Source of the DNA: a bacterium
GTDB lineage: Bacteria; NPL-UPA2; JAUVJM01
Reading direction: 5' to 3'
Length of the DNA stretch: 64,000 nucleotides
Assembly (NCBI GenBank): GCA_030606215.1
Contig: JAUWGW010000001.1
Span: 62,001 to 126,000 of the forward strand
Part shown: positions 10,075-48,560 of the stretch, one piece after another
Numbering within the stretch: position 1 is the first letter of the stretch
Layout: each line of letters starts with the position of its first letter
Notes under the pieces: model-generated
Databases searched by the model: none
What the model saw: only the letters and a program-made list of their open reading frames with translations
What the model was told of the DNA's origin: nothing
Made by a program: the position numbers and the translations under genes

Positions 10075-10086
10075 TTTTGCTCTCTC

Positions 10087-28453: not shown

Positions 28454-29338
28454 TTAAAACAGACTACTGAATTCTACTCTCGGAAAAACTTCAAGTTTCC
28501 CACCTACAGTGGCATTAAGAACCTTTACTCCCGACCGGTCACAAACCTGCTTTGCTTGCTCATAACCGAAGATCATCTGCTCTGGATGGGGTTGGTGATA
28601 TTTCTTCCCAGCTCCAAAATAATTAGGGGCAAAGTGATTAACGTCATCATCACGTGTTGCGACAATTAGATAGCGCTCATGATCTTCATAAAGGGCTGAG
28701 TCTGGTACCTGGTAATCAGTATCACATCCGATCAAGTAAATCGGGTTGAATCCAAGAAAGACAGCAATCTGCATAGCGGCCAGCGTAACTGTCGTTACAA
28801 ATCGCACATAATCTGCAACTGAGACAGAAAAATGCCCATAAGGAAGGTCATTGTCGTCAAATAGAATTTCTTTGTACCAATATGTATTGGCTGATGACAG
28901 CAGTGTCCTCTGCAAACGAAAATCCATGGGGAAGAAAAACAAAGTCTCAGGAAGTTCCCCGATCAATCGGTTGATTTCCATGCTGTTGTCCGGGACGACA
29001 CGTGTATCAATGGCAGTATAGAACGCTGGACGCCACGAAATACGGTCGAAAAGCAGGTAACATCTATTAGAGCCCCACACAAAATCACCTTTGAGTTTAT
29101 CCAGATTCATCTGGTTGAGACTCGGCCCATTTCCCATGATGAAACAACGACGTCCACGATACAAATCCTTAAGAGAAAGAAGTCGTTGGCGATAATCTCG
29201 TACAATTGGGTCTGTGCACATAGCAATGCCCATAGCAACCAGCCTCCCCGGCCCCATCAACTTCCTTGCTCGGTAAATATACCTGCGCATAGATAATGGC
29301 ATGACCTGCCGATATATTGTTTTAATAAGTGATCTCAC
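28454..29338 (-). CDS. GT42/DUF115-like protein, candidate sialyltransferase
   Basis: The 294-residue protein opens with a basic region, then CFIMGNGPSLNQMNLDKLKGDFVWGSNRCYLL, the GNGPSL signature shared by CST-type alpha-2,3-sialyltransferases (GT42) and DUF115 proteins. Later segments TLAAMQIAVFLGFNPIYLIGCDTDY and NHFAPNYFGAGKKYHQPHPEQMIFGYEQAK match the same fold, with the position of the catalytic His in CST enzymes. CMP-sugar synthetases are encoded nearby (30381 and 38660), so transfer of a CMP-nonulosonate is the favoured role. The GTG start has only a weak ribosome site. DUF115 members with other roles are the alternative. Confidence 0.62.
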   Translation of the reverse strand: MRSLIKTIYRQVMPLSMRRYIYRARKLMGPGRLVAMGIAMCTDPIVRDYRQRLLSLKDLYRGRRCFIMGNGPSLNQMNLDKLKGDFVWGSNRCYLLFDRISWRPAFYTAIDTRVVPDNSMEINRLIGELPETLFFFPMDFRLQRTLLSSANTYWYKEILFDDNDLPYGHFSVSVADYVRFVTTVTLAAMQIAVFLGFNPIYLIGCDTDYQVPDSALYEDHERYLIVATRDDDVNHFAPNYFGAGKKYHQPHPEQMIFGYEQAKQVCDRSGVKVLNATVGGKLEVFPRVEFSSLF

Positions 29339-29398: not shown

Positions 29399-30364
29399 CT
29401 AACTGTTCTCTAAAGTCTCCAGTATTGCATCATGTTCTGGCTTCTCGCCTTTCAGTACTCTTATACAATTCTCTGCAGCACCCAATTCCATCAAAAATCT
29501 GGATTCACGAGCTGATGCTCCCATATGGGCTGTAAGAATCACATTATCAAGCTGTGTTAGCATTCCTTCATATGGCTCCTTCTCGAATACATCTAATGCC
29601 GCTCCGCCTAAATGCTTCTGGAGAAGTGCATCAGTCAGAGATTCTTCATCTACCACCGGACCGCGGGAGGTGTTAATCAGACAACTACCTGTTTTCATCC
29701 TGGATATGATTTTACGGTCAACATAATGATGATTTCGCTTATTGTATGGGATGTGCAGAGTTACCAGGTCTGCACATGAAAATAATTCCTCTTTAGATAC
29801 CCATCTCAACCCAAATTTTTTGCCAAATTCAAAATCGGGTTCCAGTTCACAAGCTAATATTTTCGCATTAGATGGCTGAAGTAATTGGCAGACTCTCTTG
29901 CCAATTCGTCCCACTCCAACAATTCCAATGGTTATTTCTTTCAAAAGCACTCCCATATAACGATTCCACGTTCCTTCTCGCACAGAACGGTCAGATGATA
30001 AAATATGCCTGCTCAGATTGATGATATTGCCAACAGTAAGTTCCGCCACAGCTTGCGATGGAGCATCCGGCGTGTAGGTAACAGCAATACCAAGTTTTTT
30101 GCAGGCTTCTAAATCCACACTGTCAAGCCCGATACCAACCCTACTAATGACTTTCAATTGCCTGGCATCCTGTAGTAAATCAGATGTGTAGGGTTCAGTT
30201 CCAGCAATCACTGCATCAATATCCTCAACAAGTTCACCTACCTCTCCAGCCTTCAACCTACGACCGTATGGGTTTTTTATTATTTCCCAGCCTGTTGCTT
30301 CCAACAATTCCAGCGGCTCTCTACCAGCTTTTCCAAAAGGGTAAGTAGCAATAAATATTTTCAT
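29399..30364 (-). CDS. D-isomer-specific 2-hydroxyacid dehydrogenase
   Basis: I place the start at 30364 (MKIFIATYPFG); the track start overlaps the upstream gene by 59 bases. The enzyme of about 321 residues has a Rossmann domain with GIVGVGRIGKRV, the catalytic Arg in INTSRGPVVDEESL, Glu in DVFEKEP and His in ILTAHMGA, as in phosphoglycerate dehydrogenase-like proteins. It oxidises or reduces 2-hydroxy/2-oxo acids with NAD. Its place behind a cytidylyltransferase and a pyruvate-type aldolase suggests action on an ulosonate or its precursor instead of serine synthesis. It lacks the C-terminal ACT domain of SerA. Confidence 0.88.
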   Translation of the reverse strand: MKIFIATYPFGKAGREPLELLEATGWEIIKNPYGRRLKAGEVGELVEDIDAVIAGTEPYTSDLLQDARQLKVISRVGIGLDSVDLEACKKLGIAVTYTPDAPSQAVAELTVGNIINLSRHILSSDRSVREGTWNRYMGVLLKEITIGIVGVGRIGKRVCQLLQPSNAKILACELEPDFEFGKKFGLRWVSKEELFSCADLVTLHIPYNKRNHHYVDRKIISRMKTGSCLINTSRGPVVDEESLTDALLQKHLGGAALDVFEKEPYEGMLTQLDNVILTAHMGASARESRFLMELGAAENCIRVLKGEKPEHDAILETLENS

Positions 30365-30380
30365 TCCACTGATGCTCTGT

Positions 30381-31061
30381 TTAGTGTGAACTGGCATATA
30401 AAGCGAGTAATTCGGCAAGACGGAAAGAAAACTCATCATCTATATCAATGGATTCCACTCTTGGTGTTTCAAACATCATTGGCTTATCTCCTATGCGGTG
30501 CTCATGCAAAGCGAATGATTGTTTCGTGAATATATAAAGAACGGAATTTTCCTCATATACCGGTTGTAAATCCTGGGTAGGGATTAAATTCTCAGGGTCG
30601 TGGTTAATTGGTTTAACATCAGAAAGATAAAATCGGCTTTGGTGCCGGTTAACAGAGAAGAGAGAATCATATCCGGTTTCATCTTCCACAAATACCTTTA
30701 ATGCTCTTGCAATGGTTTCAGCCTTTAAAAGCGGATTTGTAGCATGGGTTTGTAGGTAGATGTCACCATCTGAGATTGACAAATCATACCCAAAAATCTT
30801 GTTTACATTGACATAATCACCTCTTAATTCTTTCGGTCTCTCCACAACTTTCACCTTAGAAAATAATTTTGGGGCCTCATTGATAACCAGAGGGCTATCT
30901 GTGTTAATAATGACCTCATCAACTGCATAGGTGTGTTCAAGCGTTCCCAAAATGTGATGATAAAGAGGCTTCCCGCAAAAATTGCGAAAATTCTTATCTT
31001 TTACTCGTTCACTATGCTCCTTGATTGGGACCAGCGCCACAACCTTCTGACTATGCATCAT
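30381..31061 (-). CDS. CMP-ulosonate synthetase-like cytidylyltransferase (second NeuA-like)
   Basis: The 226-residue protein has the family motif ALVPIKEHSERVKDKNFRNFCGKPLYHHIL and ends ESIDIDDEFSFRLAELL, both typical of acylneuraminate cytidylyltransferases. It differs clearly from the NeuA at 38660-39394, so the locus activates two acids or one enzyme serves another substrate. Such enzymes join CTP with a 2-keto-3-deoxy acid to form the CMP-sugar. It lies between an HpcH/HpaI aldolase and a hydroxyacid dehydrogenase. Substrate not determinable by eye. Confidence 0.84.
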   Translation of the reverse strand: MMHSQKVVALVPIKEHSERVKDKNFRNFCGKPLYHHILGTLEHTYAVDEVIINTDSPLVINEAPKLFSKVKVVERPKELRGDYVNVNKIFGYDLSISDGDIYLQTHATNPLLKAETIARALKVFVEDETGYDSLFSVNRHQSRFYLSDVKPINHDPENLIPTQDLQPVYEENSVLYIFTKQSFALHEHRIGDKPMMFETPRVESIDIDDEFSFRLAELLALYASSH

Positions 31062-31086
31062 TTGCTATCCCTCCTGTAATATATCT

Positions 31087-31125
31087 CTACTTCCTCCTCC
31101 TTGACGGGGGAGGATTAAGGTGGAG
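31087..31125 (-). repeat. CCTCCCCC-type repeat forming the aldolase C-terminus
   Basis: The sequence ctacttcctcctccttgacgggggaggattaaggtggagg resembles the copy at 4402-4440. It encodes the final HLNPPPSRRRK and the TAG stop of the aldolase gene. Confidence 0.7.
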
Positions 31126-31887
31126 GTGTAGGTTGTTCAACTTTTGCCGAATTTCTTCCAACCCCTGACGGCAAGCATTACCTACCATAGTAATATCTAA
31201 ACTGTAAGCCATTATAGAAAACCCTTCCTCAATTCTTTTCATTGCCTCTTGTGGGTCGGGCTCAATGACATGAATGCCTGCTCTGGCATTATTCCGTAAA
31301 CACTCATCAAGAATGTTTCTTCTTACCTTCAAGTAATCAGGATGTTCAAATTGACCTGTGATGCCCATTGACGCAGTCAGATCATATGGTCCAATAAACA
31401 CGGCATCAACTCCCTCAACTGAAAGGATTTCGCCAAGATTCTTAACCGCCTTTATATGCTCAATTTGGACACAGACGAAGGTTTCCTTGTTTGCTTTAGC
31501 CATATATTCATTAAAGGAGAATCCATAGCCATGGCTGCGACCGTAGCCTACCCCTCGTTCGCCCATTGGAGGATACTTCACAGAACGTACAAGCTCTTTT
31601 GCATCATGCGCACAATTAATGAGTGGTGCGATTACCCCCATCGCTCCTGCATCCAGATATCGTTTTGTTTCAGCATATGAATTTTCAGGCAAGCGTACCA
31701 TCGGTACACAATTTGGATTACCTGCTTTAATCGCTTGAAATATAACCTGTGCTTGTGGAACATCTACTGCTGAATGCTCCGCGTCAACAACAAGAAAGTC
31801 AAAACCACATGCCGCCATTATCTCTGCAACAACAGCACTTCCTGTATTGATCCAACTGCCCAAAAGACAACTCCTCTCATTTAACAT
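31087..31887 (-). CDS. HpcH/HpaI-family aldolase
   Basis: The start is set at 31887, an ATG preceded by AAGGAGGGTACGGAG; the track start at 31926 is a TTG. The protein of about 266 residues has the class II pyruvate aldolase landmarks GFDFLVVDAEHSAVD, MVRLPENSYAETKRYLDAGAMGVIAPLI, metal-binding Glu in CVQIEHIKAVKNL and DAVFIGPYDLTASMG. Members split or form 2-keto-3-deoxy acids from pyruvate and an aldehyde. Together with the following cytidylyltransferase it could make and activate a short ulosonic acid. The last 14 residues are encoded by a dispersed repeat and are Pro/Arg rich, unlike the family. Confidence 0.88.
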   Translation of the reverse strand: MLNERSCLLGSWINTGSAVVAEIMAACGFDFLVVDAEHSAVDVPQAQVIFQAIKAGNPNCVPMVRLPENSYAETKRYLDAGAMGVIAPLINCAHDAKELVRSVKYPPMGERGVGYGRSHGYGFSFNEYMAKANKETFVCVQIEHIKAVKNLGEILSVEGVDAVFIGPYDLTASMGITGQFEHPDYLKVRRNILDECLRNNARAGIHVIEPDPQEAMKRIEEGFSIMAYSLDITMVGNACRQGLEEIRQKLNNLHLHLNPPPSRRRK

Positions 31888-31922: not shown

Positions 31923-33581
31923 TCAACGGTATCTAAACGGCTCCCCATGCAAAATAGCACGCAGGATGACATCTATTTCCTGTGAGTTTTCTGGCATTAG
32001 GTCCTGGACACTATTGATGGTTATTTTTGGAACTTGACTACCAGTGCCCAGGAAAGCTGAGAGGTCAAGGCAAGTTTTAAAAAGTATATAATAGTAATAG
32101 CGGCGTGCCAGACTTCGTCGTTCTTCATTACCTGGCATTTCCTCCGCAGTCAGGAAATCCATCACCTGCCGATGATATGCTTCTGGTGTGGGGGGGAAGA
32201 GCACTGCTCTACAATCCTGGTAGGGCACTGCCCCTCCAGCAATCATCGGCTTGCCCAGTACCAACGACTCCAAACCAATGGTGGAACTATAAACCAACAC
32301 AAATTTAGAACGGTGAATCAGTTCATACGAACTCAAGTGTTCATTTGGTCCAATAAACTCCACATTTTTTAGTGTTAGCCATCCCTGCTCTTTCAACCAA
32401 TCTCCTACTGGCTCACGGCTCGGTTTGCCAGGACGCGCCTCGTCAGGATGCGCACGCACAACGAACAGGGTATCCGGGCTTTCCCGCACAATGCTCATCG
32501 TCATATTTAACCAATCAAACATATTATCAAAGCTGACATTCGCATACTTCTGAATAGCGTCGTAGCTAACGTTGGTAAAGATGGGCACCAACTGGCGATA
32601 ACAGCTAATCTTCTTCAACAAATTCTCATCCAGTTCCTTCATTTTTGGCCAGAAACGAAGACCTCCAACTGTGAAGTTGCCTTTAAACCTTCTGGTTAGA
32701 TAGTCATCAAGTTCTTTGTTCATGGGCTCGCTCAGTTCAAAATCTTTTGGCACTTCTACCTCAAATCTTACTGCCCGATTATGTGCTAAAAAAGTTGTCC
32801 CTTCGCGAAGACCTGCCTCATACGTAATGACAGGGACACCTTGCTCCCGTGCAATTGTCAAGACGACTGCCTCCGGATATGTCAAACCACTAAAAACGAC
32901 AACCGCAAGCGGGGTTTCATTAGCGACAAGTTGGCGGAAACAGCGTGCCAGGTGGGCAGCACCGACAATATATCGCGCCAGCAGCTGAGGTGCCCTCTTA
33001 TCTTTTGCCGGATCTCCTGAGTTTAAAGCCCACATCAAAGATGGATAGCCTAACCTACCCAGGGGCAAACCCTCAAATATAACATCTCTTAACTTCATTA
33101 GTGATTGGTCTTGCAAAGTATCCAGCCACGCAGTCAAATCGGAGTCGTAGCTATCGGGCCACCTGCCCCAATCGTGGCGCAGTTGGGCAGGAAATGTGAA
33201 CTGACTCAACTTGACACAATTGCGGCAAGGCTCCGGTGTGCATGGCTCGTCCCGCCAATCGGCGCCTCTCTGACACTGTAACAAACTCCGCTGACAGGAA
33301 TAATATATTACCCGATGACCTTTCAATCGCAAAGCCCAGCCTATCAGCAAATCAGTCGCCGAGTTAAAACTAACACTTCCCCAAAATGACCGGGACGAAA
33401 TATTCATCAGGACGATAGGTGGCCCTGCCAGCGGGTGTTTACGCTCCCAGGCCTGGACAGCATGTTCGACATCACGGAAGGAGCGCATCCTCTGTCTCTG
33501 CCGGAACAAGAGACCGGCGCCGCCATATATCAGAGAAATCACTGATTTTCCAAGAGAATTGTCCTCTTTTCTATTCATCAT
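31923..33581 (-). CDS. Capsular polysaccharide synthesis-type GT-B protein (KpsS-like)
   Basis: The 552-residue protein has an N-terminal half with MNISSRSFWGSVSFN and two Cys-rich turns (CQRGADWRDEPCTPEPCRNC). The C-terminal half is GT-B-like: VPIFTNVSYDAI, FVVRAHPDEARPGK, VEFIGPNEHLSSYELIHRSKFVLVYSSTIGLESLVLGKPMIAGG. The latter pattern occurs in capsule synthesis proteins that transfer Kdo or related sugars, which suits a locus with CMP-sugar synthetases. No membrane helix is evident. G+C looks higher than in neighbouring genes, so it may have arrived separately. Donor is inferred, not shown. Confidence 0.68.
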   Translation of the reverse strand: MMNRKEDNSLGKSVISLIYGGAGLLFRQRQRMRSFRDVEHAVQAWERKHPLAGPPIVLMNISSRSFWGSVSFNSATDLLIGWALRLKGHRVIYYSCQRSLLQCQRGADWRDEPCTPEPCRNCVKLSQFTFPAQLRHDWGRWPDSYDSDLTAWLDTLQDQSLMKLRDVIFEGLPLGRLGYPSLMWALNSGDPAKDKRAPQLLARYIVGAAHLARCFRQLVANETPLAVVVFSGLTYPEAVVLTIAREQGVPVITYEAGLREGTTFLAHNRAVRFEVEVPKDFELSEPMNKELDDYLTRRFKGNFTVGGLRFWPKMKELDENLLKKISCYRQLVPIFTNVSYDAIQKYANVSFDNMFDWLNMTMSIVRESPDTLFVVRAHPDEARPGKPSREPVGDWLKEQGWLTLKNVEFIGPNEHLSSYELIHRSKFVLVYSSTIGLESLVLGKPMIAGGAVPYQDCRAVLFPPTPEAYHRQVMDFLTAEEMPGNEERRSLARRYYYYILFKTCLDLSAFLGTGSQVPKITINSVQDLMPENSQEIDVILRAILHGEPFRYR

Positions 33582-33591: not shown

Positions 33592-34542
33592 TCACAAGGG
33601 AGTCTGCGTAAAAGGATTAAACCAAGCCTCTTTAATCTTGCTCTTAAGTACTTTTTCTATTCCGTCTTTTAGGCTGACCGTACACTTGTACCCTAAAAAT
33701 CTCTTCGCTTTGGAAATATCCGGAGTCCTTGTTACTATCTCTCGACATGCCTCCCTATCAGCATTTTGTAGGGGGACAAACTCGGGCTTAATTCTCTTGC
33801 CGCCAATTCCAATAACAGTCGTAGCTAAATCTTTCATAGTGATAGGCTTTTTGTCATCACCTATGTTGAATACTTCACCGTCAGCTTTCGTCGCAAACAA
33901 AGCTAAAGCTATCCCTTCTACCGCATCATCAACATAACAGAACGCTCTCACTTGCTCTCCAGTCCCATAAATACATGGTGATAACCCTTGCTGTATAGCT
34001 TTTACAAATCTGGGAATCACAAACTCAGCAATTTGTCCAGTACCGTAAATATTGAATAGTCTTACAATAGTATGATCCAGAGCATAGGCTTGACGATATG
34101 CCCGAACATACTCTTCACCGGCCAACTTTGTTACCCCATATACTGATTTGGGATTGACAGGATTTGTCTCAGAAATTGGTTGCTTGGCTTGGTCGCCATA
34201 AACCTCTGAAGATGATATAAACAGAATTTTCTTTACTCTCTCCTTTACACAATTCTCAAGCACATTGACCGTCCCCAATATATTAATATTCAAGCAGTCC
34301 AGTCTTCTAATTTCTGTTCTCCTGACACCCACCATAGCAGCCAAATGCACAACATACTCACACCCCCGGATAGCTAATCGCAGTGCATCCGTATCCAGTA
34401 TGCTACCCATGTAGTTTTCTGCACCTTTAGCTCTTGATTCCACTATATCAAAAGCTCTTACATCATACCCTAATTTGACCAAATGTCTCACCAATGCTGA
34501 ACCAATAAACCCAGAGCCTCCAGTAACCAAAACCTTAGACAT
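33592..34542 (-). CDS. NAD-dependent sugar epimerase/dehydratase
   Basis: The 316-residue SDR protein shows VLVTGGSGFIGSALVRHLV, HLAAMVGV, the active-site SSSEVYGD and YGVTK. The Ser-Ser-Ser-Glu sequence in place of TDE favours an epimerase over a 4,6-dehydratase. It probably acts on a UDP- or dTDP-sugar in the nonulosonate or capsule pathway. The start overlaps the stop of the DegT gene by one base. The aminotransferase upstream suggests the two act on linked steps. Confidence 0.86.
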   Translation of the reverse strand: MSKVLVTGGSGFIGSALVRHLVKLGYDVRAFDIVESRAKGAENYMGSILDTDALRLAIRGCEYVVHLAAMVGVRRTEIRRLDCLNINILGTVNVLENCVKERVKKILFISSSEVYGDQAKQPISETNPVNPKSVYGVTKLAGEEYVRAYRQAYALDHTIVRLFNIYGTGQIAEFVIPRFVKAIQQGLSPCIYGTGEQVRAFCYVDDAVEGIALALFATKADGEVFNIGDDKKPITMKDLATTVIGIGGKRIKPEFVPLQNADREACREIVTRTPDISKAKRFLGYKCTVSLKDGIEKVLKSKIKEAWFNPFTQTPL

Positions 34543-35690
34543 TATAGACTTCTCCTATATTGAGAACATAGAGTTTCCACTACTTCCACAACAATAGATA
34601 CTTCTTCCTCACTCATTGCGGGATAAATTGGCAGGGATAATGCAGTCCTGGCGAACTCAAGAGTATTTGGATAGTCATCGGAGATAGCCAAATCCGTGAA
34701 CACTTTTTGTGTGTGTAGAGCCGGATAGTATAGTCTTGAACTTACCCCTTTTTCAGACAGGGCTTCAATGAACTGATTTCTGGTTATAGTCACCTCATCA
34801 AGATTTAACCTGATTGTATAAAGCTGATAATTGATGTCATTCTCAGTTCTTTGAAATGGAGTGATGATGGCCTCTAAATCTTCAAACGCCATGGTATATC
34901 TATGAGCAATACTTCTTCTCCGACGAACTGCTTCTTCCAATTTTCTTAGCTGGACCAAACCTACGCCACCCATTACCTCAGGCATTCTAAAATTAAAACC
35001 TAAATTCTCATACTCGAATTTACCTATGTCACTGAAATCCCTTATTAATCTACATTTTTTTGCTAAATCAGACTTATTTGTGGTAATCATGCCACCTTCC
35101 CCGGTAGTTATAGGTTTTGAAGGAGTGAAACTAAAAATAGCAATGTCTCCTATCCCCCCCGCCTTTTTGCCTTTGTACTCAGACAAATGTGCTTCTGCCG
35201 CATCCTCTAAGACGAACAGGCCGTATCTTTTTGCTATTTCTAATATATATTCCATATCAGCACTTTGCCCGGCATAATGCACAGGAATAATACCTTTGGT
35301 TCCCTTAGTAATTCTTCGCTTTATATCACCTGGATTTATACAATAGGTTTTCATCTCAATGTCTGCAAAGACTGGCTTAGCTCCCAGATACATGCAGGAT
35401 GAGGCAGTGGAGATAAACGTCATATCTGGCACAATAACCTCATCGCCAGCCTGGACTCCCAGAGCTTGCTGTGCAATTAGCAAAGCACTGCTTCCACTGT
35501 TAACAGCAACTGCGTGCCTAACAGCAATTTTTTCTGCAAATCTTTTTTCAAATTCAGCAACTTTAGGGCCGGATATGAGCCACCCAGACTTTACAATACT
35601 CTGGGCAATCTGTGCCTCTTCTGCACCGATCCATGGTTTTGACAAAGGGATCTTTACATTTCCCCTAATACTGCTTCCTGCAATACTCAC
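34542..35690 (-). CDS. DegT/DnrJ/EryC1-family sugar aminotransferase
   Basis: I set a GTG start at 35690 (VSIAGSSIRGN) because AAGGAGGATATCTAAG precedes it; the track start overlaps the upstream acetyltransferase gene. The protein of about 382 residues has IPLSKPWIGAEEA, VNSGSSALLIA, VLEDAAEAHLSEYKGKKAG and the PLP-binding Lys in FSFTPSKPITTGEGGM. These enzymes aminate keto-sugar nucleotides. Next to NeuB/C/D and an amidotransferase it may serve a legionaminate-like or other diaminosugar route. Confidence 0.9.
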   Translation of the reverse strand: MSIAGSSIRGNVKIPLSKPWIGAEEAQIAQSIVKSGWLISGPKVAEFEKRFAEKIAVRHAVAVNSGSSALLIAQQALGVQAGDEVIVPDMTFISTASSCMYLGAKPVFADIEMKTYCINPGDIKRRITKGTKGIIPVHYAGQSADMEYILEIAKRYGLFVLEDAAEAHLSEYKGKKAGGIGDIAIFSFTPSKPITTGEGGMITTNKSDLAKKCRLIRDFSDIGKFEYENLGFNFRMPEVMGGVGLVQLRKLEEAVRRRRSIAHRYTMAFEDLEAIITPFQRTENDINYQLYTIRLNLDEVTITRNQFIEALSEKGVSSRLYYPALHTQKVFTDLAISDDYPNTLEFARTALSLPIYPAMSEEEVSIVVEVVETLCSQYRRSL

Positions 35691-35706
35691 CTTAGATATC
35701 CTCCTT

Positions 35707-36333
35707 CTATTTTTCTGCAGGTTTAGCTGGTATTCCCACATATACTTTGTTATTCTCAGTATCTTTGGTGATGACAGCTCCTGCACCTACAAAGACGTTT
35801 TCACCGACTATTCTATTTTCTAATACAGTAGCACCTGCTCCTACTTGACTGAAATCACCTACTGTCGCAAATCCTAACACTGTCGCGCTGGGACTAATAT
35901 GACAATACTTGCCTATATTGGAGTTATGTTCAACAACCGCATTGCTGTTAATGATTGTATAGTCACCAATCACAGCATGAGGGTTGACCACACAGTTTAC
36001 ACACAATTGTGCTGTTTCGCTTATCCTGGCGTTGTCAGAGACATAACATTGTGGGTGCTTTGCTCCAATTAGGGTTAGGCCTTTTTCCGCACTCCTTTCT
36101 ACCAACATCCTTCTCACTCTCCCATCAGCGACAGCAACAATCCCTTTCTCAACACCCTTTTTGATTAAACCATCTACTTTCTCAAAATTGCCCAAAACTT
36201 TTACTCCATCTATCGCGGTGTCATACAATTCTTTACTGTCATCTATAAATCCTGCTACTTCAATATCGTTAAGTCTTAGTATCTCTAAAATTATTCTTCC
36301 GTGTCCTCCTGCACCAATAATTATGCACTTCAT
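35707..36333 (-). CDS. neuD: NeuD-like sugar O/N-acyltransferase
   Basis: The start is placed at 36333 (MKCIIIGAGGHGRIILEIL) behind AGGGGATATATA. The protein of about 208 residues has the N-terminal Rossmann-like GAGGHG domain and a left-handed beta-helix of hexapeptide repeats (NARISETAQLCVNCVVNPHAVIGDYTIINSNAVVEHN), ending in the standard GIPAKP. NeuD/PglD proteins acetylate sialic acid or UDP-aminosugars. It sits between neuC and the aminotransferase; N-acetylation of an amino-sugar made by the latter is equally likely. Confidence 0.9.
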   Translation of the reverse strand: MKCIIIGAGGHGRIILEILRLNDIEVAGFIDDSKELYDTAIDGVKVLGNFEKVDGLIKKGVEKGIVAVADGRVRRMLVERSAEKGLTLIGAKHPQCYVSDNARISETAQLCVNCVVNPHAVIGDYTIINSNAVVEHNSNIGKYCHISPSATVLGFATVGDFSQVGAGATVLENRIVGENVFVGAGAVITKDTENNKVYVGIPAKPAEK

Positions 36334-36366
36334 TATATATCCCCTATGCTCATTCATCATACTCTG

Positions 36367-37521
36367 TCAATAAGTTATTTGTTTCTGCAGTAACTTTCTA
36401 TCTATCCTTACCCCAGCCAAAATATCGGCAATTCTATGACCTGTCTTGCCATCACCATAAGGATTCTTGCAATGCTGAACTCTCTCACGAAATTTCTTAT
36501 CATATAAAGCTTCTTCTATTGCACGCACTATTTCGTGCTTATCATATCCAACATCAATAATATTTTCTCCTCTCTCTCTATTTTTCTGCCTTGTGCCAAC
36601 ATTTACTACAGGTAATCTGAAGGATGCCGACTCTATGATACCGCTACTGGAATTGCCAATCATGACACTTGCAATGCCCATTAGGCTTAGGTAATCTTCA
36701 TAAGGCAAACTCTTATATGTCTGCAGAAATGGCAAGTTTTCATATTTTCTAATTCTTTGAACCATTACTCTTCCACCAGCATCAGCGTTCGGATATATCC
36801 ATACACATTGCAGTTGCAATTTCTTGATTGCCTCAAGAGTTTGCTCAATCTGAAATTCGCAGTCAGATATTTCCATAGAGACAGGATGCTGAACTGCCAA
36901 CAATATGGGCTCTTTAAAATCCAAATGATATTTTTTTCCCAATTCGTCTTTTTTGATTAGCGGTGCATTTAAGATTGTGTCCAAAGATGGCGCACCAACA
37001 ACATGTACTCTCCAAGCCTCTTCGCCCATCTTCAGGATTCTCTTTGCACTATTTTGAGTCGCTGGAAAGTGTATATGCGCTAATTTGGTAATCGCATGCC
37101 TGGCAATTTCATCCACTGTGCTGGATACCTCGCCTCCATGGATATGGGCGACTGGAATGCCACAGTAGACACCAGTAACAGCACCAGACAACATCTCTCC
37201 TCTATCACCAAGAACTATAATTATATCCGGCTGTATCTTTTTAACAATCTGGAGAATACCCACTATGCAGTTCCCTACAAATTCCGCCATAGCAGGTTTA
37301 TTATCTTCCTGATAAACAAAATTAGCAATTTCGTATTCAAAACCATCCTTTTTAATCTCTTTAATGGTTTCTCCAAATTCAGACATCAAATGCATTCCTG
37401 TAACTATCAGAGTCAATTCAAGTTTTGGATGGTTTCTTACAGCATTTAGTACCGATTTCATCAGGCCGTAATCTGCCCTGGTTCCTGTAACATAAACAAT
37501 TTTCCTCGCAGTAGGTCTCAT
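36367..37521 (-). CDS. neuC: UDP-N-acetylglucosamine 2-epimerase, hydrolysing (NeuC/LegG-like)
   Basis: The 384-residue enzyme starts RKIVYVTGTRADYGLMKSVLNAV, the standard NeuC N-terminus, and has VLGDRGEMLSGAVTGVYCGIPVAHIHGGEVSSTVDE and IGNSSSGIIESASFRLPVVNVGTRQKNRERG. It releases UDP while inverting C2, giving ManNAc (or the 2,4-diacetamido version in legionaminate synthesis). The next gene in transcription order encodes an acyltransferase; the preceding gene is neuB. Which sugar is used cannot be decided from motifs alone. Confidence 0.93.
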   Translation of the reverse strand: MRPTARKIVYVTGTRADYGLMKSVLNAVRNHPKLELTLIVTGMHLMSEFGETIKEIKKDGFEYEIANFVYQEDNKPAMAEFVGNCIVGILQIVKKIQPDIIIVLGDRGEMLSGAVTGVYCGIPVAHIHGGEVSSTVDEIARHAITKLAHIHFPATQNSAKRILKMGEEAWRVHVVGAPSLDTILNAPLIKKDELGKKYHLDFKEPILLAVQHPVSMEISDCEFQIEQTLEAIKKLQLQCVWIYPNADAGGRVMVQRIRKYENLPFLQTYKSLPYEDYLSLMGIASVMIGNSSSGIIESASFRLPVVNVGTRQKNRERGENIIDVGYDKHEIVRAIEEALYDKKFRERVQHCKNPYGDGKTGHRIADILAGVRIDRKLLQKQITY

Positions 37522-37535
37522 CTTACGAACATATT

Positions 37536-38663
37536 TTAAGAGAAAGATTCTTCAGTTAACAACTCATCAGCTCTTATATTTCTTGCAGCCTTTTTACCAA
37601 TGATGTTTTTGAACTGTTTTGGAGGTAGACCAGTCCCTGGCCTTTTGATAGTTATCATATCCTCCTGGATTACTACTCCTTTCTTAATATCCTTTGCCGC
37701 CACCACGCTTTTCCTTACAGCCTCTGCAATCCTTAATTCACTTTCCGTGGGCTTGACATTTCTTGAGCCTAAAATTAACTCAACACTATCCAGCGGAAAA
37801 GCGGTTTTGAGCTTCCTGTTAATCTCTCTTAGAACCTCAAAAGGATCCCTTATTTGAGCTTGTTCAACAAACCTTGCCATCTCGATCATTTGCTTGAGTT
37901 CATTTGGTTCCAGAGAAGCTTTATGGTCTAACCCATCCATATTCTTATCTAAGGTGAAGTGTTTTTCAATAATCGCAGCCCCTAAGGAAACGGCGACAGC
38001 CGCAGGCTCTATCCAAGAGGTATGGTCAGAAAATCCTACAGGCAGACCAAATTCATTCTCCAGAGTTTCCATCACTCGCAGATTCACATCCCCCAGTCTA
38101 CACGGGTAGTCTGTCGTGCAATGTAAAATGATAATCTTGTTGGTGTTTTCCCTCACTGTATCAATTGCTTCTTTCACCTCTTCAAAGGTTGCCATTCCTG
38201 TACTTATTATCAAGGGCTTGCCTTTCTCGGAAACATACTCCAGTAACGGAACATTGGTCACATCGGGACTGGGAATCTTGAAAGCTACTACCCCTAAACT
38301 ATCCAGAACATCAACACTCCATTTATTTGAATGGGATGAAGATAAGAAAATGATATTTTTCTGGTCACAGTACTCCTTTAAAACCTTATGTTCTTTTTCC
38401 GTAAGCTCAACCTTTTTGAGAACATTGAATTGTGAATCGCACTTCCCGATATTTTGGCGTTGATACTCAACGATGGGTAAGTCTTTCGTTACTATGTCTT
38501 CTGTTCTAAATGTTTGAAACTTAACCGCATCTGCACAAGCAGATACAGCTGCATCTATCATCCTCTTTGCTATTTCCATATTCCCGTTGTGGTTGACACC
38601 AGCCTCAGCAATTATGAATACTGGATATCCCTTCCCAATTTTCTTGTCAGCTATCTTAATCAT
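37536..38663 (-). CDS. neuB: N-acetylneuraminate/legionaminate synthase
   Basis: The 375-residue enzyme has the NeuB barrel (VFIIAEAGVNHNGNMEIAKRMIDAA, AVKFQTFRTEDIV, PLIISTGMAT, LHCTTDYPC, GFSDHT, EKHFTLDKNMDGLDH) and a C-terminal SAF/antifreeze-like domain (SVVAAKDIKKGVVI through RPGTGLPP). It condenses phosphoenolpyruvate with an N-acylated mannosamine-type sugar to a nine-carbon acid. It overlaps neuA by 4 bases. Confidence 0.95.
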   Translation of the reverse strand: MIKIADKKIGKGYPVFIIAEAGVNHNGNMEIAKRMIDAAVSACADAVKFQTFRTEDIVTKDLPIVEYQRQNIGKCDSQFNVLKKVELTEKEHKVLKEYCDQKNIIFLSSSHSNKWSVDVLDSLGVVAFKIPSPDVTNVPLLEYVSEKGKPLIISTGMATFEEVKEAIDTVRENTNKIIILHCTTDYPCRLGDVNLRVMETLENEFGLPVGFSDHTSWIEPAAVAVSLGAAIIEKHFTLDKNMDGLDHKASLEPNELKQMIEMARFVEQAQIRDPFEVLREINRKLKTAFPLDSVELILGSRNVKPTESELRIAEAVRKSVVAAKDIKKGVVIQEDMITIKRPGTGLPPKQFKNIIGKKAARNIRADELLTEESFS

Positions 38664-39394
38664 GACCTATTGCGCGAGTGCTTCCTTTCTTTCATGATTG
38701 CCTCCGCAATCTTAAAGTCAAATTCATCATCTATATCTAATGATCTTTCTTTGGACATGGTATATGCCCTGGTGTCCTTGCCGATAACAAAGTCTTTCAA
38801 TTGCATGAGTACGCTAACTTTTGTAGCATAAATTGCTGCGTTTACTCTATACAGTTTCGGGGATTCTAAGTAACTACATGGTTTCCTGCTTGCCACTCTG
38901 GATATGAATTCCTCCTCAATGCAGAACTTGATTCTCTTCTCATTATCTATCTTTAACATCCACAAGGATAAATAGTCCAATTCACATACACTGGCAACAG
39001 AATCTGCTCCTGTGTCTCTTAAGATTTTTAGAGCCTTATCAATATCTTCGACTGTTCGGAACGGGGAGGTTGGTTGTAAGAGAATAGCATAGTCAAATCC
39101 TTCTATATTTCTCAATACATGTTGCATAACTGGCAAAGTAGGAGTTATGTCTTGCACTAATTCTACCGGCCTTATCACGACTTCAGCCCCATATTGTCGA
39201 GAGACTTCGGCAATTTCGTCATCTTCAGTAGAAACCACCGTCTTTGTTATACGGTTTGATAGCAATGCCTGTTGAATGGTATAGGCAATCAGTGGTTTAC
39301 CAGCCAATATTCTTAGGTTCTTCCTCTTAACCCGTTTAGAGTTTCCCCTTGCCGGAATTATGGCTATTATTTGAGCAGCGTTTTCAGTTTCCAT
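38660..39394 (-). CDS. neuA: CMP-nonulosonate synthetase (NeuA-like)
   Basis: Start moved to 39394 (METENAAQIIAIIPARGNSKRV) since AAGG precedes it; the track start lies inside the upstream gene. The protein of about 244 residues has IIPARGNSKRVKRKNLRILAGKPLIAYTI, the LLQPTSPFRTVEDID segment and ERSLDIDDEFDFKIAEAIM. It activates the NeuB product with CTP for transfer to glycans. It is the better NeuA/LegF candidate of the two cytidylyltransferases, being next to neuB. Confidence 0.93.
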   Translation of the reverse strand: METENAAQIIAIIPARGNSKRVKRKNLRILAGKPLIAYTIQQALLSNRITKTVVSTEDDEIAEVSRQYGAEVVIRPVELVQDITPTLPVMQHVLRNIEGFDYAILLQPTSPFRTVEDIDKALKILRDTGADSVASVCELDYLSLWMLKIDNEKRIKFCIEEEFISRVASRKPCSYLESPKLYRVNAAIYATKVSVLMQLKDFVIGKDTRAYTMSKERSLDIDDEFDFKIAEAIMKERKHSRNRS

Positions 39395-40473
39395 TTGCCT
39401 TCCACTTTCTCCCAAATTTCCTTGTTGCGAAATCTTTCAGCAATGTCCCAGAATTCTTCTTCAGTATAGCCAGTGAATTCCAGAAAGTCTTTTAAGGCTT
39501 TTGGGTCTAATTTATGGTCATGTTCCTTGACCAGCTTGATTGCTTCATCCCTGCTAATCCTACCTGTGCGTATCCAGTAACAACATACGTCCGTAACTCT
39601 AGCATGACCATACTTGTAATATTTCAACCAGGGGTGTACCAGGTAACCAATAGCATCTATCTGGTCATAATCTTCTACGTATCCTTCCCTTTTCCATTCA
39701 TCTCCTAAAGATTTAAACCCATACTTTCTGGCAACTTCATAATTACGATAACCATCCCAAGGGAAAAAATAGCTCAAATAGATGGGTTCTATACCAGCTT
39801 TTTCTATCTCTTCCTTCCCAGGATAAATAAAAGTGTTAAGGTCCTTCATTGTTATTTCCTCATCCAACCAAAAGTCCCAATCTATAGGCTTTACCACATC
39901 ATTATCAATTTGGTCTTTAGCGCTATAGGTCTCTTCTTTCTGAAAACCACCATATTCATAACTCACATTTTCACCATATACTACCAAGGGAATCTTCATA
40001 TTTATGGCCATTCTAATGGGGAAAACATATACTGCTCTATCCCAGCACCACATAGGACTTCCGAGCTTTTCAAAAGCCTTTCGCATCATCTTTCTGGCTA
40101 ATTTCCTATTTAGGTGAAGAGAGATAGTATCGCAACCAAATGCATCACTAAGATTATTAAAATTGTGAAGCCCGGCCTTAGTCCAGCTGAAATTCGATAC
40201 ATTGACCAGAAGAGGATTCATCTCCATCCGCTCTTTTATTACATACGCCTGGAAATGGCTATCCTTCCCTCCACTCACAGTAACAATACAATCATAATAG
40301 TTACCATTTTTACCTCTAAACTTATCGCAGAGATTCTGAAGTTCGCTGTATCGCGAATCCCAGTCAATCCCCTTCTTCTTCTCAGCTACTTTACAAGCCT
40401 GGCAGATACCTTCGCTATCCAGGACCAGACCCGGCCTGGTATCTGGCATCACACATTTTTTACAATATCTCAT
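39367..40473 (-). CDS. N-acetyl sugar amidotransferase (PseA/WbpG-like)
   Basis: The 368-residue protein begins MRYCKKCVMPDTRPGLVLDSEGICQAC, with paired cysteines for zinc, followed by the PP-loop ATP site TVSGGKDSHFQAYVI and the VYGENVSYEYGG segment. The family installs acetamidino groups on pseudaminic or legionaminic acid, or amino groups on LPS sugars, using ammonia from a partner HisH/HisF-type glutaminase. No such partner is visible next to it; the AsnB-like protein of the same block has a glutaminase domain. It is the first gene of the neu set in transcription order. Confidence 0.9.
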   Translation of the reverse strand: MRYCKKCVMPDTRPGLVLDSEGICQACKVAEKKKGIDWDSRYSELQNLCDKFRGKNGNYYDCIVTVSGGKDSHFQAYVIKERMEMNPLLVNVSNFSWTKAGLHNFNNLSDAFGCDTISLHLNRKLARKMMRKAFEKLGSPMWCWDRAVYVFPIRMAINMKIPLVVYGENVSYEYGGFQKEETYSAKDQIDNDVVKPIDWDFWLDEEITMKDLNTFIYPGKEEIEKAGIEPIYLSYFFPWDGYRNYEVARKYGFKSLGDEWKREGYVEDYDQIDAIGYLVHPWLKYYKYGHARVTDVCCYWIRTGRISRDEAIKLVKEHDHKLDPKALKDFLEFTGYTEEEFWDIAERFRNKEIWEKVEGKWKLKTLLK

Positions 40474-40482: not shown

Positions 40483-42123
40483 CTACTCACATTCCGCTCT
40501 GTCCAACCAACCATCGGGGCTGCTTATCGTTCCCATATCGGGTGACTCTCCAGCCTTTAGAAAAACAGATTTTAACAGCACCCAGTAAGACATACGGTCA
40601 ACCGATGAGTTGTCTGCATTAAGCCGGTACTCCAATCGCACTAATGACTCCGGACACGGATATCGGTCATTGGTAGTAACTGTGCATATCCATCCCTCTG
40701 GACGCAGCCAAAGATCTACTGACTCCTCATCATAAATGAACACTGGCGATACAATTGTATTGCGAGCAAAATTTACCGGGACGTTCAAATCCTCCGGCGA
40801 CATTCTTCTATTCATCACCAGAACTTCTCTTGTGCTCGGGACCATCTTCAGGATGAACAGCGGTGGATCCACTAAGCCAGCAGGTATTATGCGAGCCAGT
40901 TTCGTGGCCAATTCACGCTGCACCAGCGAATCATAAATGTACCATTTGGTAACTCGTAAAGAGGAGAGAGCAAGAATCATCAGCACTACAAAAAATACGC
41001 TGATTCTGATTCGATGATGCCGGATAGCCATAATAAACGTCGCGCCGATTATTGAAATACCAGGAATCGAAGCATACGCAAAGCGACTGAAAAAGTGGCA
41101 AGCCGAGGGCACTCTGCCAATTAGTGCGTAGGGTAATGCGCCCAGTATCGCAAGTAGTACTCCGAATGCAAGCTGCCAAGTAATCAGACTCCTCTGCTTC
41201 AAGTGCGACGTCTTTCTTCGCCTACCCGCTGGCTCCCAAAACCACACAATTAAAAGTCCCAAAACTCCCAAAATAATGATTCCATGCCAGGAAGCCAATT
41301 TAAGCGCGGAACTCAGTGTGTAGCTGACACCATGCAGGTAGTAGCGACCATGCCTGGCCAAATCCTTTAGTAACGGCAACATCGAGAATCTTAGCTGATT
41401 GTAACTTGCATAGTACCCGTAGGGTTTTAACCAGGTAAACTTGGCAATGATAAAAGCAACAGCTATAATCCAAAATGGCATGCAACGCCGGGTCACCTTG
41501 CGAATCCCCTTGCCACTCTGATGCACAAATAGAACTCGTAACGGTTCCAGGAACATAAGGGTTTCAAACGATAAAGAAGTAATAAAAGCTCCCACTGCCA
41601 GGATACTTCCTCTCTTTCGGCCAGAAGACATGACCCAGATGGACAACAAATAACAAAACATGAAAATGTCATAACTGGTATGTACTAAACACCCACGCGC
41701 ATAGTAGAACGGAGAAAGCAAATATATTGCCGCGGCCCAGACAGAAATATCCTGTGTCAAGCGCGGCCGCCGCAAGATCCGGTAGAGAAGAACACCATTG
41801 GCAAGATGACAGACCACGGCAAAGACCCTTGCCAGTATCCCAGCGTGTTGGCCTCCCACTCCATAGAACAGGGCAAGAGGCAGCCAGTAGCCCGGATGCC
41901 GCATCTGCAATGTGTACTCAAATAGTTTATTTAAACCCTCAACCCTTGATACCCAAAACCAGGCCCAATCATCCCAATACATGCCCGAAATAAGGAGAAA
42001 TGGAACATAGATTAGACCACAGGTGATAAATAGCACAGAAACAGCCCGCGGTGTCAGAATGTTTAAACCTCGGTTATGTGTTGATAAAAGGTGTAATCTC
42101 TGTCTGTTAATTTTACCGGTCAT
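40483..42123 (-). CDS. Multi-pass membrane protein, copy B of a tandem duplication
   Basis: I choose the start at 42123 (MTGKINRQRLH), overlapping the upstream gene by 11 bases. The protein of about 546 residues has ten or so hydrophobic helices, with WDDWAWFWVSRVEGL as first loop and HPGYWLPLALFYGVGGQHAGILARVFAVVCHLANG, resembling GT39-type enzymes in layout (acidic first loop, R.H.P pattern). A soluble C-terminal domain follows. It closely matches the upstream gene at 42113-43756 along its whole length. Likely a polyprenyl-linked sugar transferase or glycan modifier. No function is certain. Confidence 0.62.
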   Translation of the reverse strand: MTGKINRQRLHLLSTHNRGLNILTPRAVSVLFITCGLIYVPFLLISGMYWDDWAWFWVSRVEGLNKLFEYTLQMRHPGYWLPLALFYGVGGQHAGILARVFAVVCHLANGVLLYRILRRPRLTQDISVWAAAIYLLSPFYYARGCLVHTSYDIFMFCYLLSIWVMSSGRKRGSILAVGAFITSLSFETLMFLEPLRVLFVHQSGKGIRKVTRRCMPFWIIAVAFIIAKFTWLKPYGYYASYNQLRFSMLPLLKDLARHGRYYLHGVSYTLSSALKLASWHGIIILGVLGLLIVWFWEPAGRRRKTSHLKQRSLITWQLAFGVLLAILGALPYALIGRVPSACHFFSRFAYASIPGISIIGATFIMAIRHHRIRISVFFVVLMILALSSLRVTKWYIYDSLVQRELATKLARIIPAGLVDPPLFILKMVPSTREVLVMNRRMSPEDLNVPVNFARNTIVSPVFIYDEESVDLWLRPEGWICTVTTNDRYPCPESLVRLEYRLNADNSSVDRMSYWVLLKSVFLKAGESPDMGTISSPDGWLDRAECE

Positions 42124-43756
42124 TTTTGTCCAACCAGCCATCGGGGCTGCTTATCATTCCCATATCGGGTGACTCTCCAGCCTTTAGAAAAACAGATTTT
42201 AACAGCACCCAGTAAGACATACGGTCAACCGATGAGTTGTCTGCATTAAGCCGGTACTCCAATCGCACCAATGACTCCGGACACGGATATCGGTCGTGCC
42301 ATGTAACTGTGCATAAGTAGCCTTCTGGACGTCGCAAACCGTCAACGGACTCTTCGTCATAAATGAACACTGGCGATGCAGTTGTATTGCGAGCCAGATT
42401 TACCGGGGCGTTCAGATCCTCCGGGTCCATTCTTCTGTTTAACACCAAAACTTCTCTTGTGCTTGGAACCATCTTCAAGATGAACAGCGGCGGATGCACA
42501 AGATTAGCAGGTATTATGCGAACCAGCTTCATGACCAATTCACGCTGTACCAGCGAGTCATAAATATACCATTTTGTAATTCGTAAGGAGGAAAGAGCAA
42601 GAATCATCATTACTATGAAAAATACACTGATTCTAATTCGATAATGCCGAATGGCCATAATAAGTGCCGCGCCAATTATCGAAATACCCGGGATCGAAAT
42701 ATATGCAAAACGACTATAAAAAGCATAAGACGATGGAACTCTACCAATTAGCGCGTAGGGTAACGCACCCAGTATCGCGAGCAGTGTTCCGAATAGAAGC
42801 TGCCAACCGACCAAGTTGTGCCCTTCCCGGCATTGTGCTTCTTTTCGCCTGCTCCTTCGACTGAAAAGCCACGCGATTAAAAGTCCCAAAACTCCCAAAG
42901 TAATAATTCCAGGCCACGAAGCCAATTTAAGTGCGGAACTCAATGTGTAGCCGACACCACGCAGGTAATAGCGACCATGCCTCGCCAGATTCTGTAACAA
43001 CGGTAGCATCGAAAATCTCAACTGATTATAACTTGCGAAGTCACCATAGGGTTTTAACCAGACAACCCTAGCGACAGTGAACGCAGCAAACATAATCCAA
43101 AACGGCACGCAACGTCGGATAGTGTTGCGGACCCCTTTCCAACCCCGATGCACAAATAGGACTCGTAATGGTTCTAAGAACATAAGGGTCTCAAAGAATA
43201 ATGAAATAATAAAAGCTCCCACTGCAAGCAGATTCCCTCTCCTTCGACCAGAACGCAGGAGCCAGATCGAGAATAGATAAAAGAACATGAAGATGTCATA
43301 AATGGCATGGCTTATAGTTCCACGCGCATAGTAAAATGGAGAAAGCAAATATATTGCCGCAGCCCAGACAGAAATATCACGTGTCAAGAGCGGCCGCCGC
43401 AAGATCCGGTAGAGAAGAATACCATTGACGAGATGACAGACTACGGCAAAGACTCTCGCCAGTATCCCAGCGTGCTCACCCCCAACCCCGTAGAACAGCG
43501 CAAGAGGGAACCAGTAGCCCGGATGCCGCATCTGCAACGTGTAATCAAATAGTCTATCCAGACCCTCGACCCTTGACACCCAGAACCAGGCCCAATCGTC
43601 CCAATAGATGCCCGGAATCAACAGAAACGGGATATAGACTAAACCGCAGGCGATAAATAGTAGAAAGATAGCCCGCGGTGTCATAATAGCTGAATGTCGA
43701 TTATCCAATGCCAGAAATCGTTCGTGTCGAAATAATATCAGATGTGAGAATTTCAT
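42113..43756 (-). CDS. Multi-pass membrane protein, copy A of a tandem duplication
   Basis: The ATG at 43756 overlaps the stop of the Wzt-like gene (ATGA), so I prefer it over the track start at 43819. The protein of about 547 residues shares with copy B the loop WDDWAWFWVSRVEGL, the HPGYW..PLALFYGVGG segment, and almost identical last 60 residues (LVRLEYRLNADNSSVDRMSYWVLLK and onward). Helix count and acidic first loop suggest a GT39-like transferase. It follows the exporter genes, so it may modify the exported glycan. G+C appears higher than in the neighbouring neu genes. Confidence 0.64.
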   Translation of the reverse strand: MKFSHLILFRHERFLALDNRHSAIMTPRAIFLLFIACGLVYIPFLLIPGIYWDDWAWFWVSRVEGLDRLFDYTLQMRHPGYWFPLALFYGVGGEHAGILARVFAVVCHLVNGILLYRILRRPLLTRDISVWAAAIYLLSPFYYARGTISHAIYDIFMFFYLFSIWLLRSGRRRGNLLAVGAFIISLFFETLMFLEPLRVLFVHRGWKGVRNTIRRCVPFWIMFAAFTVARVVWLKPYGDFASYNQLRFSMLPLLQNLARHGRYYLRGVGYTLSSALKLASWPGIITLGVLGLLIAWLFSRRSRRKEAQCREGHNLVGWQLLFGTLLAILGALPYALIGRVPSSYAFYSRFAYISIPGISIIGAALIMAIRHYRIRISVFFIVMMILALSSLRITKWYIYDSLVQRELVMKLVRIIPANLVHPPLFILKMVPSTREVLVLNRRMDPEDLNAPVNLARNTTASPVFIYDEESVDGLRRPEGYLCTVTWHDRYPCPESLVRLEYRLNADNSSVDRMSYWVLLKSVFLKAGESPDMGMISSPDGWLDKNDR

Positions 43757-45027: not shown

Positions 45028-45044
45028 TTTCGCCCTCATTCTAA

Positions 45045-45066
45045 CTCCCTCCCACAAAGGGAGAGG
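45045..45066. repeat. CTCCC/GGGAG palindrome between permease and ATPase genes
   Basis: The sequence ctccctcccacaaagggagagg is similar to the stem at 3123-3160 (ccctctcccaccaggggagaggg). It occupies the short space between the two exporter genes. Confidence 0.55.
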
Positions 45067-45075
45067 AAAATTTTT

Positions 45076-45981
45076 TCACACCACATCTGCAAAAGTTTGT
45101 TCCATCTTTCGGAAATAGAGAATTCCACCGATAAGAATCAGAACTATTATCGAAATTGAAACAGCAAGAGATGGTCCCCAGATTGCTCCCTTGCCGAGCA
45201 ATGCTTTCCTAAATCCTTCTATTACTCCTACCATTGGATTAAGCCCGTAAAGAGCTCTCCATCGCTCTGGAACTATAGTGATTGGGTACGCAATTGGAGT
45301 TGCGAAAAGCCAGAGCTGTATTAGAAATCCCACGGCATAACGGACATCCCTGTACTGAACATTCAATGCTGAGAGCCATAACCCTACCCCAAATGCAGTT
45401 ATGATTGACAGAAGCACAAACAGAGGTATTGTCCATATCGCCCCTGTGGGGTAAATATTATAGAAAAACATCATCCCGATAAGGACAGTAAAAGCAATGA
45501 CAAAATCTACCAATCCTCCAAGAACTGAGGATAAAGGTAAGATCAGGCGAGGAAAATATACTTTGGTAATTGTCTGTTGATGTTCCACAAGACTGTTTGT
45601 CGCATGGGTGAGGCTATTTGCAAAATATGTCCAGGGAACAAGTGCACTATAGGCGAAAATCGGATAGGGCAACCCCTCCGAGGGAATTCTCGCAAATTTA
45701 CCAAAGAATAGACTGAAGATCATCATCGTAAAAAAAGGTTGGATAATTGCCCATGCACCACCAATTGCAGTTTGCTTATACCGCACCTTTATGTCACGCC
45801 ATGTGAGGAAGTAGACAAGTTCTCGGTATTCCCACAGTTCTTTGAAATTGAGAAATCGCCAACCATGAGTAGCCCGTATGCAGATTGTTGGAATTCCTCT
45901 CATGGATTCTGTAGGCAAGCTACAATTCCCTCCACGAACTCGCTTTTTTTTAGAATCAAGTAAACTCACTTTTCTTTCCAA
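45076..45981 (-). CDS. wzm: Polysaccharide ABC exporter permease (Wzm-like)
   Basis: The 301-residue protein has a cytoplasmic N-terminal stretch and the ABC-2 membrane domain: YFLTWRDIKVRYKQTAIGGAWAIIQPFFTMMIF, LVPWTYFANSLTHATNSLVEHQQTITKVYFPRLILPLSSVLGGLVDF and RYAVGFLIQLWLFATPIAYPI. These are signature segments of O-antigen and capsule exporters. It exports lipid-linked glycan across the inner membrane with the Wzt-like ATPase. It overlaps the upstream small membrane gene by 26 bases. Confidence 0.93.
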   Translation of the reverse strand: MERKVSLLDSKKKRVRGGNCSLPTESMRGIPTICIRATHGWRFLNFKELWEYRELVYFLTWRDIKVRYKQTAIGGAWAIIQPFFTMMIFSLFFGKFARIPSEGLPYPIFAYSALVPWTYFANSLTHATNSLVEHQQTITKVYFPRLILPLSSVLGGLVDFVIAFTVLIGMMFFYNIYPTGAIWTIPLFVLLSIITAFGVGLWLSALNVQYRDVRYAVGFLIQLWLFATPIAYPITIVPERWRALYGLNPMVGVIEGFRKALLGKGAIWGPSLAVSISIIVLILIGGILYFRKMEQTFADVV

Positions 45982-48537: not shown

Positions 48538-48560
48538 TTATCTGTGATGTTGGCACAAAA

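Follow-up and report, generated by a model that had tools for sequence, protein, structure and literature searches.

A conserved aldolase, cytidylyltransferase and dehydrogenase cassette in diverse bacteria and its possible role in making a CMP-activated ulosonic acid

Introduction

The well-known CMP-activated sugar acids (Kdo, Neu, Pse, Leg, and Kdn) start from PEP-dependent synthases. The Kdo pathway runs through KdsD, KdsA, KdsC, and KdsB and is followed by Kdo transferases, and the Neu, Pse, and Leg pathways use NeuB, PseI, or LegI together with NeuA, PseF, or LegF and a transferase of the GT42 or Maf type. D-2-hydroxyacid dehydrogenases interconvert 2-hydroxy and 2-keto acids; in vitamin B6 synthesis, one of them (PdxB) forms a 2-keto aldonate after oxidation of an aldose by Epd. 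To our knowledge, no Kdo, Neu, Pse, or Leg pathway contains an HpcH aldolase together with a D-2-hydroxyacid dehydrogenase. The chemistry available to such aldolases is broad: members of PF03328 accept hydroxypyruvate with glyceraldehyde or erythrose (PMC7610986), and HpaI of Acinetobacter baumannii converts pyruvate and D-glyceraldehyde into a 2-keto-3-deoxy sugar acid (PMC8560999).

Here, we analyze a bacterial locus in which genes for these two enzyme types enclose a cytidylyltransferase gene. A preliminary description had placed this combination outside the four pathways; in agreement, no account of the trio, or of hexulosonic or heptulosaric acid linked to CMP, was found among the open-access papers searched. 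Overall, its interpretation is partly supported by the present analysis.

Organization of the locus

The window is the whole stretch of 64,000 nucleotides that was analyzed, from a bacterium of the NPL-UPA2 lineage (contig JAUWGW010000001.1), and all positions refer to it. Five genes follow one another on the minus strand in the order of transcription: a KpsC/KpsS-like protein (31923-33581), a metal-dependent 2-oxoacid aldolase of the HpcH/HpaI type (ALD, 31087-31887), a cytidylyltransferase (CMPT, 30381-31061), a D-2-hydroxyacid dehydrogenase (DH, 29399-30361), and an MptE-like protein (28454-29338). Pfam searches confirmed the identity of the three consecutive central genes as first described. 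The likely ALD start, ATG 31887, agrees with the coordinate given at that time and is preceded by an AGGAGGG ribosome-binding site, which is also found ahead of CMPT; the longest ALD reading frame extends to 31926 and shares 4 bp with that of the KpsC/KpsS-like protein. DH probably starts at ATG 30361 (longest reading frame to 30439). The intergenic gaps are 25 bp between ALD and CMPT and about 19 bp between CMPT and DH.

A probably separate nonulosonic-acid set adjoins these genes upstream on the same strand (33592-40473) and encodes a LegB-like epimerase, a PseC/LegC-like aminotransferase, NeuD, NeuC, NeuB, NeuA, and a WbuX amidotransferase. CMPT is thus the second cytidylyltransferase of the window, as had been noted, the other being the NeuA (38660-39415) beside neuB, neuC, and neuD, and the NeuB of the window is probably part of this set with its own NeuA. 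The epimerase at 33592 gave a score of 174 with the epimerase family of ALD-type operons described below and possibly belongs to the cassette, but was left out of it because it can also be placed in the adjacent Leg-type set. Positions 43753-45981 encode an ABC-2 exporter with a Wzt-type ATPase.

Other genes of this region were also recorded. Just upstream of the sugar genes, two tandem membrane proteins (40483-43819) with 78% identity over 533 residues represent a recent duplication; the one that was searched against Pfam gave no match. The polysaccharide cluster also includes a pair similar to the pyruvate dehydrogenase E1 alpha and beta subunits (50470-52493), with radical SAM genes around it (47041-49667, 52497-53564, and 54523-55431).

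Features of the encoded proteins

ALD matched PF03328 with 118.4 bits (3.8e-34; cut-off 25). As in HpcH/HpaI, GarL, and RhmA (YfaU), the catalytic Asp-His pair, the Arg, and the metal-binding Glu/Asp (equivalents of DxEH, R70, E149, and D175) are kept, and this holds for every full-length operon copy in the alignment. However, the GP(A/S)DL and G(I/F)L motifs of GarL and RhmA correspond to GPYDL and GxHVI in ALD, and the gene context of ALD is biosynthetic. By our reading of the alignment, these motifs would lie near the aldehyde site; pocket residues of such aldolases have been discussed previously (PMC8560999). Scores fell below the NCBIfam equivalog cut-offs for HpaI (170 vs. 369 bits), GarL (161 vs. 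407), and RhmA (142 vs. 441), and by these measures ALD is not an equivalog of any of the three. The operon ALDs group together in the tree with moderate support (90/77); other HpcH enzymes, even those of the same genomes, fall outside.

CMPT matched PF02348 (CTP_transf_3) with 74.4 bits (1.5e-20; cut-off 22.6) and appears to represent a separate family of enzymes of the CMP-ulosonate synthetase type, marked by the motifs THxTNP, NHxP..TQDL..EENS, RIG, and DID. Residue numbers and roles were taken from the Neisseria meningitidis enzyme (PMC2901514), in which Asp209 and Asp211 are the catalytic aspartates that bind Mg. Like the NeuA-type enzymes of the Neu, Pse, and Leg pathways, CMPT retains the CTP- and Mg-binding residues in the alignment (equivalents of K21, N22, R71, D209, and D211), whereas its Neu5Ac pocket is changed: Gln104 is replaced by His in every aligned member (residue 106 of the window protein), Lys142 falls in a gap, Arg165 is Thr, and Phe192/Phe193 are Arg-Ile. 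The NeuA of the window, in comparison, retains Gln104, Arg173, Asn175, and Tyr179. Judged by these pocket residues, CMPT is not a standard Neu5Ac or Leg synthetase, and it is unlikely to accept only Neu5Ac. CMPT resembles the Kdo enzyme KdsB in that a CTP_transf_3 enzyme would activate a 2-keto sugar acid to a CMP sugar, but lies far from KdsB in the tree. NCBIfam cut-offs ruled out assignment of CMPT as an equivalog of PseF (71.8 vs. 205.7 bits) or KdsB (21 vs. 155.2).

A sister CMPT family, also with His at position 104, occurs in an Enterobacteriaceae plasmid system together with NeuB and an inositol-monophosphatase-like protein; unlike the cassette, this system has a NeuB-family synthase, and no ALD or DH is annotated nearby. 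Its carriers include capsule-type clusters on Enterobacter and Escherichia coli plasmids (L014 and L095), in which Asp-Ile-Asn replaces Asp-Ile-Asp at the metal site.

DH matched PF02826 (1.7e-49) and PF00389 (2.7e-24), and its NAD fold and Arg-Glu-His triad are conserved. The equivalog score for SerA was low (224 vs. 454 bits), and a loop reads A-G-T rather than the R-S-R of E. coli SerA; ordinary SerA, phosphoglycerate dehydrogenase, was excluded on these two grounds. The PdxB cut-off was not reached either (107 vs. 434 bits). The previous suggestion that the dehydrogenase could form an aldehyde is not supported, as the enzyme class acts between 2-hydroxy and 2-keto acids. The paper classifying the 2HADH family does not mention cytidylyltransferases, aldolases, or a polysaccharide context. 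Based on the conserved residues, ALD, DH, and CMPT all look catalytically intact.

The MptE-like protein (PF01973) had been described as a flanking GT42-like transferase, which agrees with its predicted structure (pLDDT 86; built from an alignment without the plasmid loci): the fold matched Maf (Z 15.0 over 197 residues), Cst-II (12.7), and Cst-I (12.6). The model thus supports a Maf/GT42 fold, as in the CMP-ulosonate transferases of the Neu, Pse, and Leg pathways, and makes this protein the probable transferase for the CMP-activated product. A Maf of Clostridium botulinum is described as accepting several ulosonic acid donors, including Kdo (PMC11339370). The other flanking gene had been assigned to a KpsS-like transferase. 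Its product has a GT-B-type fold and narrowly passes the PF05159 cut-off (20.6 vs. 20 bits), so that the assignment stands weakly at the family level; in structural comparison, KpsC is among the matches but not the top one, and the KpsS assignment is left weak because UDP-GlcNAc 2-epimerases rank above KpsC. This protein may serve the product of the neighbouring NeuB.

Distribution of the cassette

A scan with the CMPT alignment found at least 585 relatives, of which the best 80 were kept as loci together with four plasmid loci, giving 82 scorable loci. Loci were selected by CMPT alone, and neighbours on the same strand within 6.5 kb were scored with family profiles derived from the loci themselves. 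Among the 82 loci drawn in this way from the best 80 relatives and the plasmids, counted regardless of phylogeny and with Chloroflexota making up about half, DH was found near CMPT in 69, a short-chain dehydrogenase (SDR) in 45, the MptE-like protein in 39, ALD in 19, a HAD phosphatase in 13 (a likeness to the Kdo pathway), and KpsC/KpsS-like homologues in 10. By chance, about 0.3 ALD neighbours should be seen, because 28 of the locus genomes, about 97 Mb, contain 30 HpcH/HpaI genes (0-4 in each genome); in several genomes of the ALD type, no copy other than that next to CMPT was found. DH is also present in 18 of the 19 ALD loci, which bears out the earlier expectation that the three families co-occur. 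For comparison, 26 further CTP_transf_3 loci were taken from the same genomes, with flanks of only about 1.5 kb per side compared with 6.5 kb for the CMPT loci. None of these control loci had ALD and two had DH (one a second related module, the other a partial match on the opposite strand); most DH and ALD neighbours of CMPT fall inside this 1.5 kb or near its limit. Several loci are on short contigs, and gene absences are therefore soft. The ALD-CMPT-DH grouping is a conserved, non-random functional unit.

ALD-type loci were detected in about ten phyla: that of the window, Sumerlaeota, Planctomycetota, Deferribacterota, Bacteroidota, Thermodesulfobacteriota, Bacillota, Ignavibacteriota, Bdellovibrionota, and Pseudomonadota. 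The nearest relative is a Sumerlaeota MAG contig with a compact ALD-CMPT-DH-MptE cassette in the same order as the window (identities of 70, 70, 61, and 44%, respectively), adjoined by unrelated housekeeping genes, with no nonulosonic genes around it and no NeuB match nearby. Acuticoccus has the order ALD-CMPT-DH-HAD phosphatase, and additional genes in larger operons of the ALD type encode an epimerase-like protein, a PF04199 cyclase/hydrolase, and a HAD phosphatase. In one locus (L018), CMPT and DH are together and the HpcH gene is on another contig. The CMPT family is widely spread but sparse in Bacteroidota, where 9 of 296 sampled genomes reached the threshold of the search, 6 of them with unequivocal members. 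No close relative was found in nine genomes of the same phylum as the window, and no CMPT relative in a phage collection.

ALD and SDR largely exclude each other. Within the same set (82 loci from the best 80 of at least 585 relatives plus the plasmids), 18 loci had ALD only, 44 SDR only, and one both (Fisher p = 4e-7, kinship ignored); an additional Bacteroidota locus (L159) also carries both. Most Chloroflexota have SDR in place of ALD, almost exclusively. Many loci carry the SDR variant without ALD, so that ALD is not a general feature of the CMPT family. In the DH tree, ALD- and SDR-associated sequences are split by a single change, with moderate support (SH-aLRT 91), whereas the CMPT tree requires three changes, at least two of them forced by well-supported branches. 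As the type of DH follows the swap and the CMPT family is common to both variants, these trees argue for DH acting together with ALD or SDR before the CMPT step, and for both front ends yielding substrates accepted by the CMPT family. Relatives of SDR include aldose and glucose dehydrogenases, and in the Thalassovita locus a gluconolactonase-family gene adjoins an SDR gene and a kdsA gene.

Proposed pathway and alternatives

Taken together, the cassette probably makes and uses a CMP-ulosonate whose 2-keto acid is derived from a metal-dependent aldolase and DH instead of a PEP-dependent synthase, and it is quite likely that ALD makes this CMP-ulosonate. In both respects the cassette departs from known systems: it has an aldolase and a D-2-hydroxyacid dehydrogenase where the Kdo pathway has a KdsA-type synthase, and it lacks the NeuB-type condensation of the Neu, Pse, and Leg pathways. 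A search for PEP synthases that covered NeuB relatives detected none in the Sumerlaeota cassette or in most ALD-type loci.

In the proposed pathway, ALD would join a 2-oxo acid donor and a sugar-like aldehyde to give a 2-ulosonic acid, and DH would work before activation, at the 2-hydroxy/2-keto acid level. As its chemistry is limited to this conversion, DH should either supply the donor or make the 2-keto group. In the ALD variant, it may supply the donor, for instance by oxidizing D-glycerate to hydroxypyruvate, and the aldol product would then be a 3-hydroxylated (hex-2-ulosonic-type) 2-ulosonic acid; hydroxypyruvate is the donor we favor, tentatively. In the SDR variant, SDR followed by DH might lead from an aldose to a product of this class, a 2-keto aldonate, with DH oxidizing C2 of the aldonate. 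This follows the logic of Epd and PdxB, except that the product would be CMP-activated rather than transaminated and that DH is below the PdxB cut-off. CMPT would couple the ulosonic acid to CMP, and the MptE-like protein would transfer it to a glycan or another acceptor, with a polysaccharide exported by the ABC transporter of the same cluster as the probable destination. The directions of ALD and DH, the donor, the product, and the acceptor in this scheme are those we infer. The two variants might thus share a single product class. A point against this scheme is that the presence of DH in both variants fits one common role of DH better than the two roles proposed here.

Two further points count against this route. 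Aldol reactions are reversible, and the equilibrium of hydroxyacid dehydrogenases usually favors the 2-hydroxy acid; therefore, consumption of CTP would have to draw the reactions forward. In addition, ALD and DH belong to families with catabolic members.

The most probable alternative is that ALD and DH feed a 3-deoxy-ulosonate made from ordinary pyruvate, for example a 2-keto-3-deoxy acid of C6-C8 length; DH would then regenerate the 2-oxo acid or remove it, instead of supplying hydroxypyruvate. Pyruvate is the substrate of the characterized HpaI, GarL, and RhmA relatives, and the A. baumannii reaction cited above is of this kind (PMC8560999); yet such a route leaves no necessary role for DH, although DH is the most constant partner of CMPT and is also present in loci without ALD. 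We regard this Kdo-like route as possible but doubtful.

It is less probable that DH, and perhaps ALD, produces a D-2-hydroxy acid or 4-hydroxy-2-oxo acid that decorates a sugar as an N-acyl or ether substituent, and that CMPT activates a decorated nonulosonic acid from the neighbouring NeuB. There is precedent in a pseudaminic acid whose N-acyl group is (R)-lactate (PMC7281560), a full neuA/B/C/D set adjoins the cassette in the window, and NeuA-NeuB-KPSS genes lie upstream in some Anaerolineae loci. However, the cassette also occurs where no NeuB match is nearby, as in Sumerlaeota, the NeuB of the window already has NeuA alongside, CMPT is devoid of the Neu5Ac-pocket residues, and no acyl-activating gene was found conserved with the cassette; this makes decoration unlikely.

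Finally, it is very improbable that ALD, CMPT, and DH are independent genes merely accumulating in surface-polysaccharide islands: such islands are gene-rich mosaics and some CMPT loci lack ALD or DH, but the excess of ALD neighbours over expectation, the same gene order and close spacing across phyla, and the absence of ALD beside control cytidylyltransferases all speak against it.

Implications

Returning to the CMP-ulosonate pathway proposed here, a wider and more speculative possibility, which at present appears less likely than the core proposal, is a third class of CMP-sugar acids beside Kdo and the nonulosonic acids, spread across many phyla, in which interchangeable ALD+DH or SDR+DH front ends lead to a 3-hydroxylated 2-ulosonic acid of the 2-keto-aldonate class, a dedicated CMP synthetase family activates it, and an MptE-like transferase of sialyltransferase fold uses it. 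If the cassette does replace PEP-dependent synthases as proposed, a whole class of surface sugars in bacteria would have gone unnoticed, the cassette would provide a gene signature for finding such sugars, and new enzymes for sugar-acid synthesis would become available. It would also explain part of the many "acylneuraminate cytidylyltransferase" and "MptE-like" annotations in Chloroflexota and other environmental phyla; as these would come partly from this cassette, prediction of sialic acid from such genes would be risky. No link was found between a cassette-carrying genome and a structure-solved polysaccharide. Carriers include cultured organisms (Seleniivibrio woodruffii, Acuticoccus, Pseudoalteromonas, Thermanaerothrix, and Longilinea), in which the proposal is directly testable.

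Additional observations

Two protein families without a Pfam match are conserved beside CMPT, one in 18 loci (X666, L050:8659-10659) and the other in 6 (X360, L027:8666-9748). In a Planctomycetes contig (L017:5354-6117), ALD is split into two reading frames of 139 and 116 aa, which is a frameshift or an assembly error. A second, distant module was observed in a Deltaproteobacterium (L134, G025:C8:70000-86000, positions 5106-11418), comprising ALD, SDR, a TylF-like protein, another SDR, a KdsB-like cytidylyltransferase, DH, and an HldE-like fusion of PfkB kinase and CTP_transf_like nucleotidyltransferase. Its cytidylyltransferase is from another family than CMPT, yet occurs with ALD and DH, suggesting that ALD plus DH and a CMP synthetase came together on more than one occasion.
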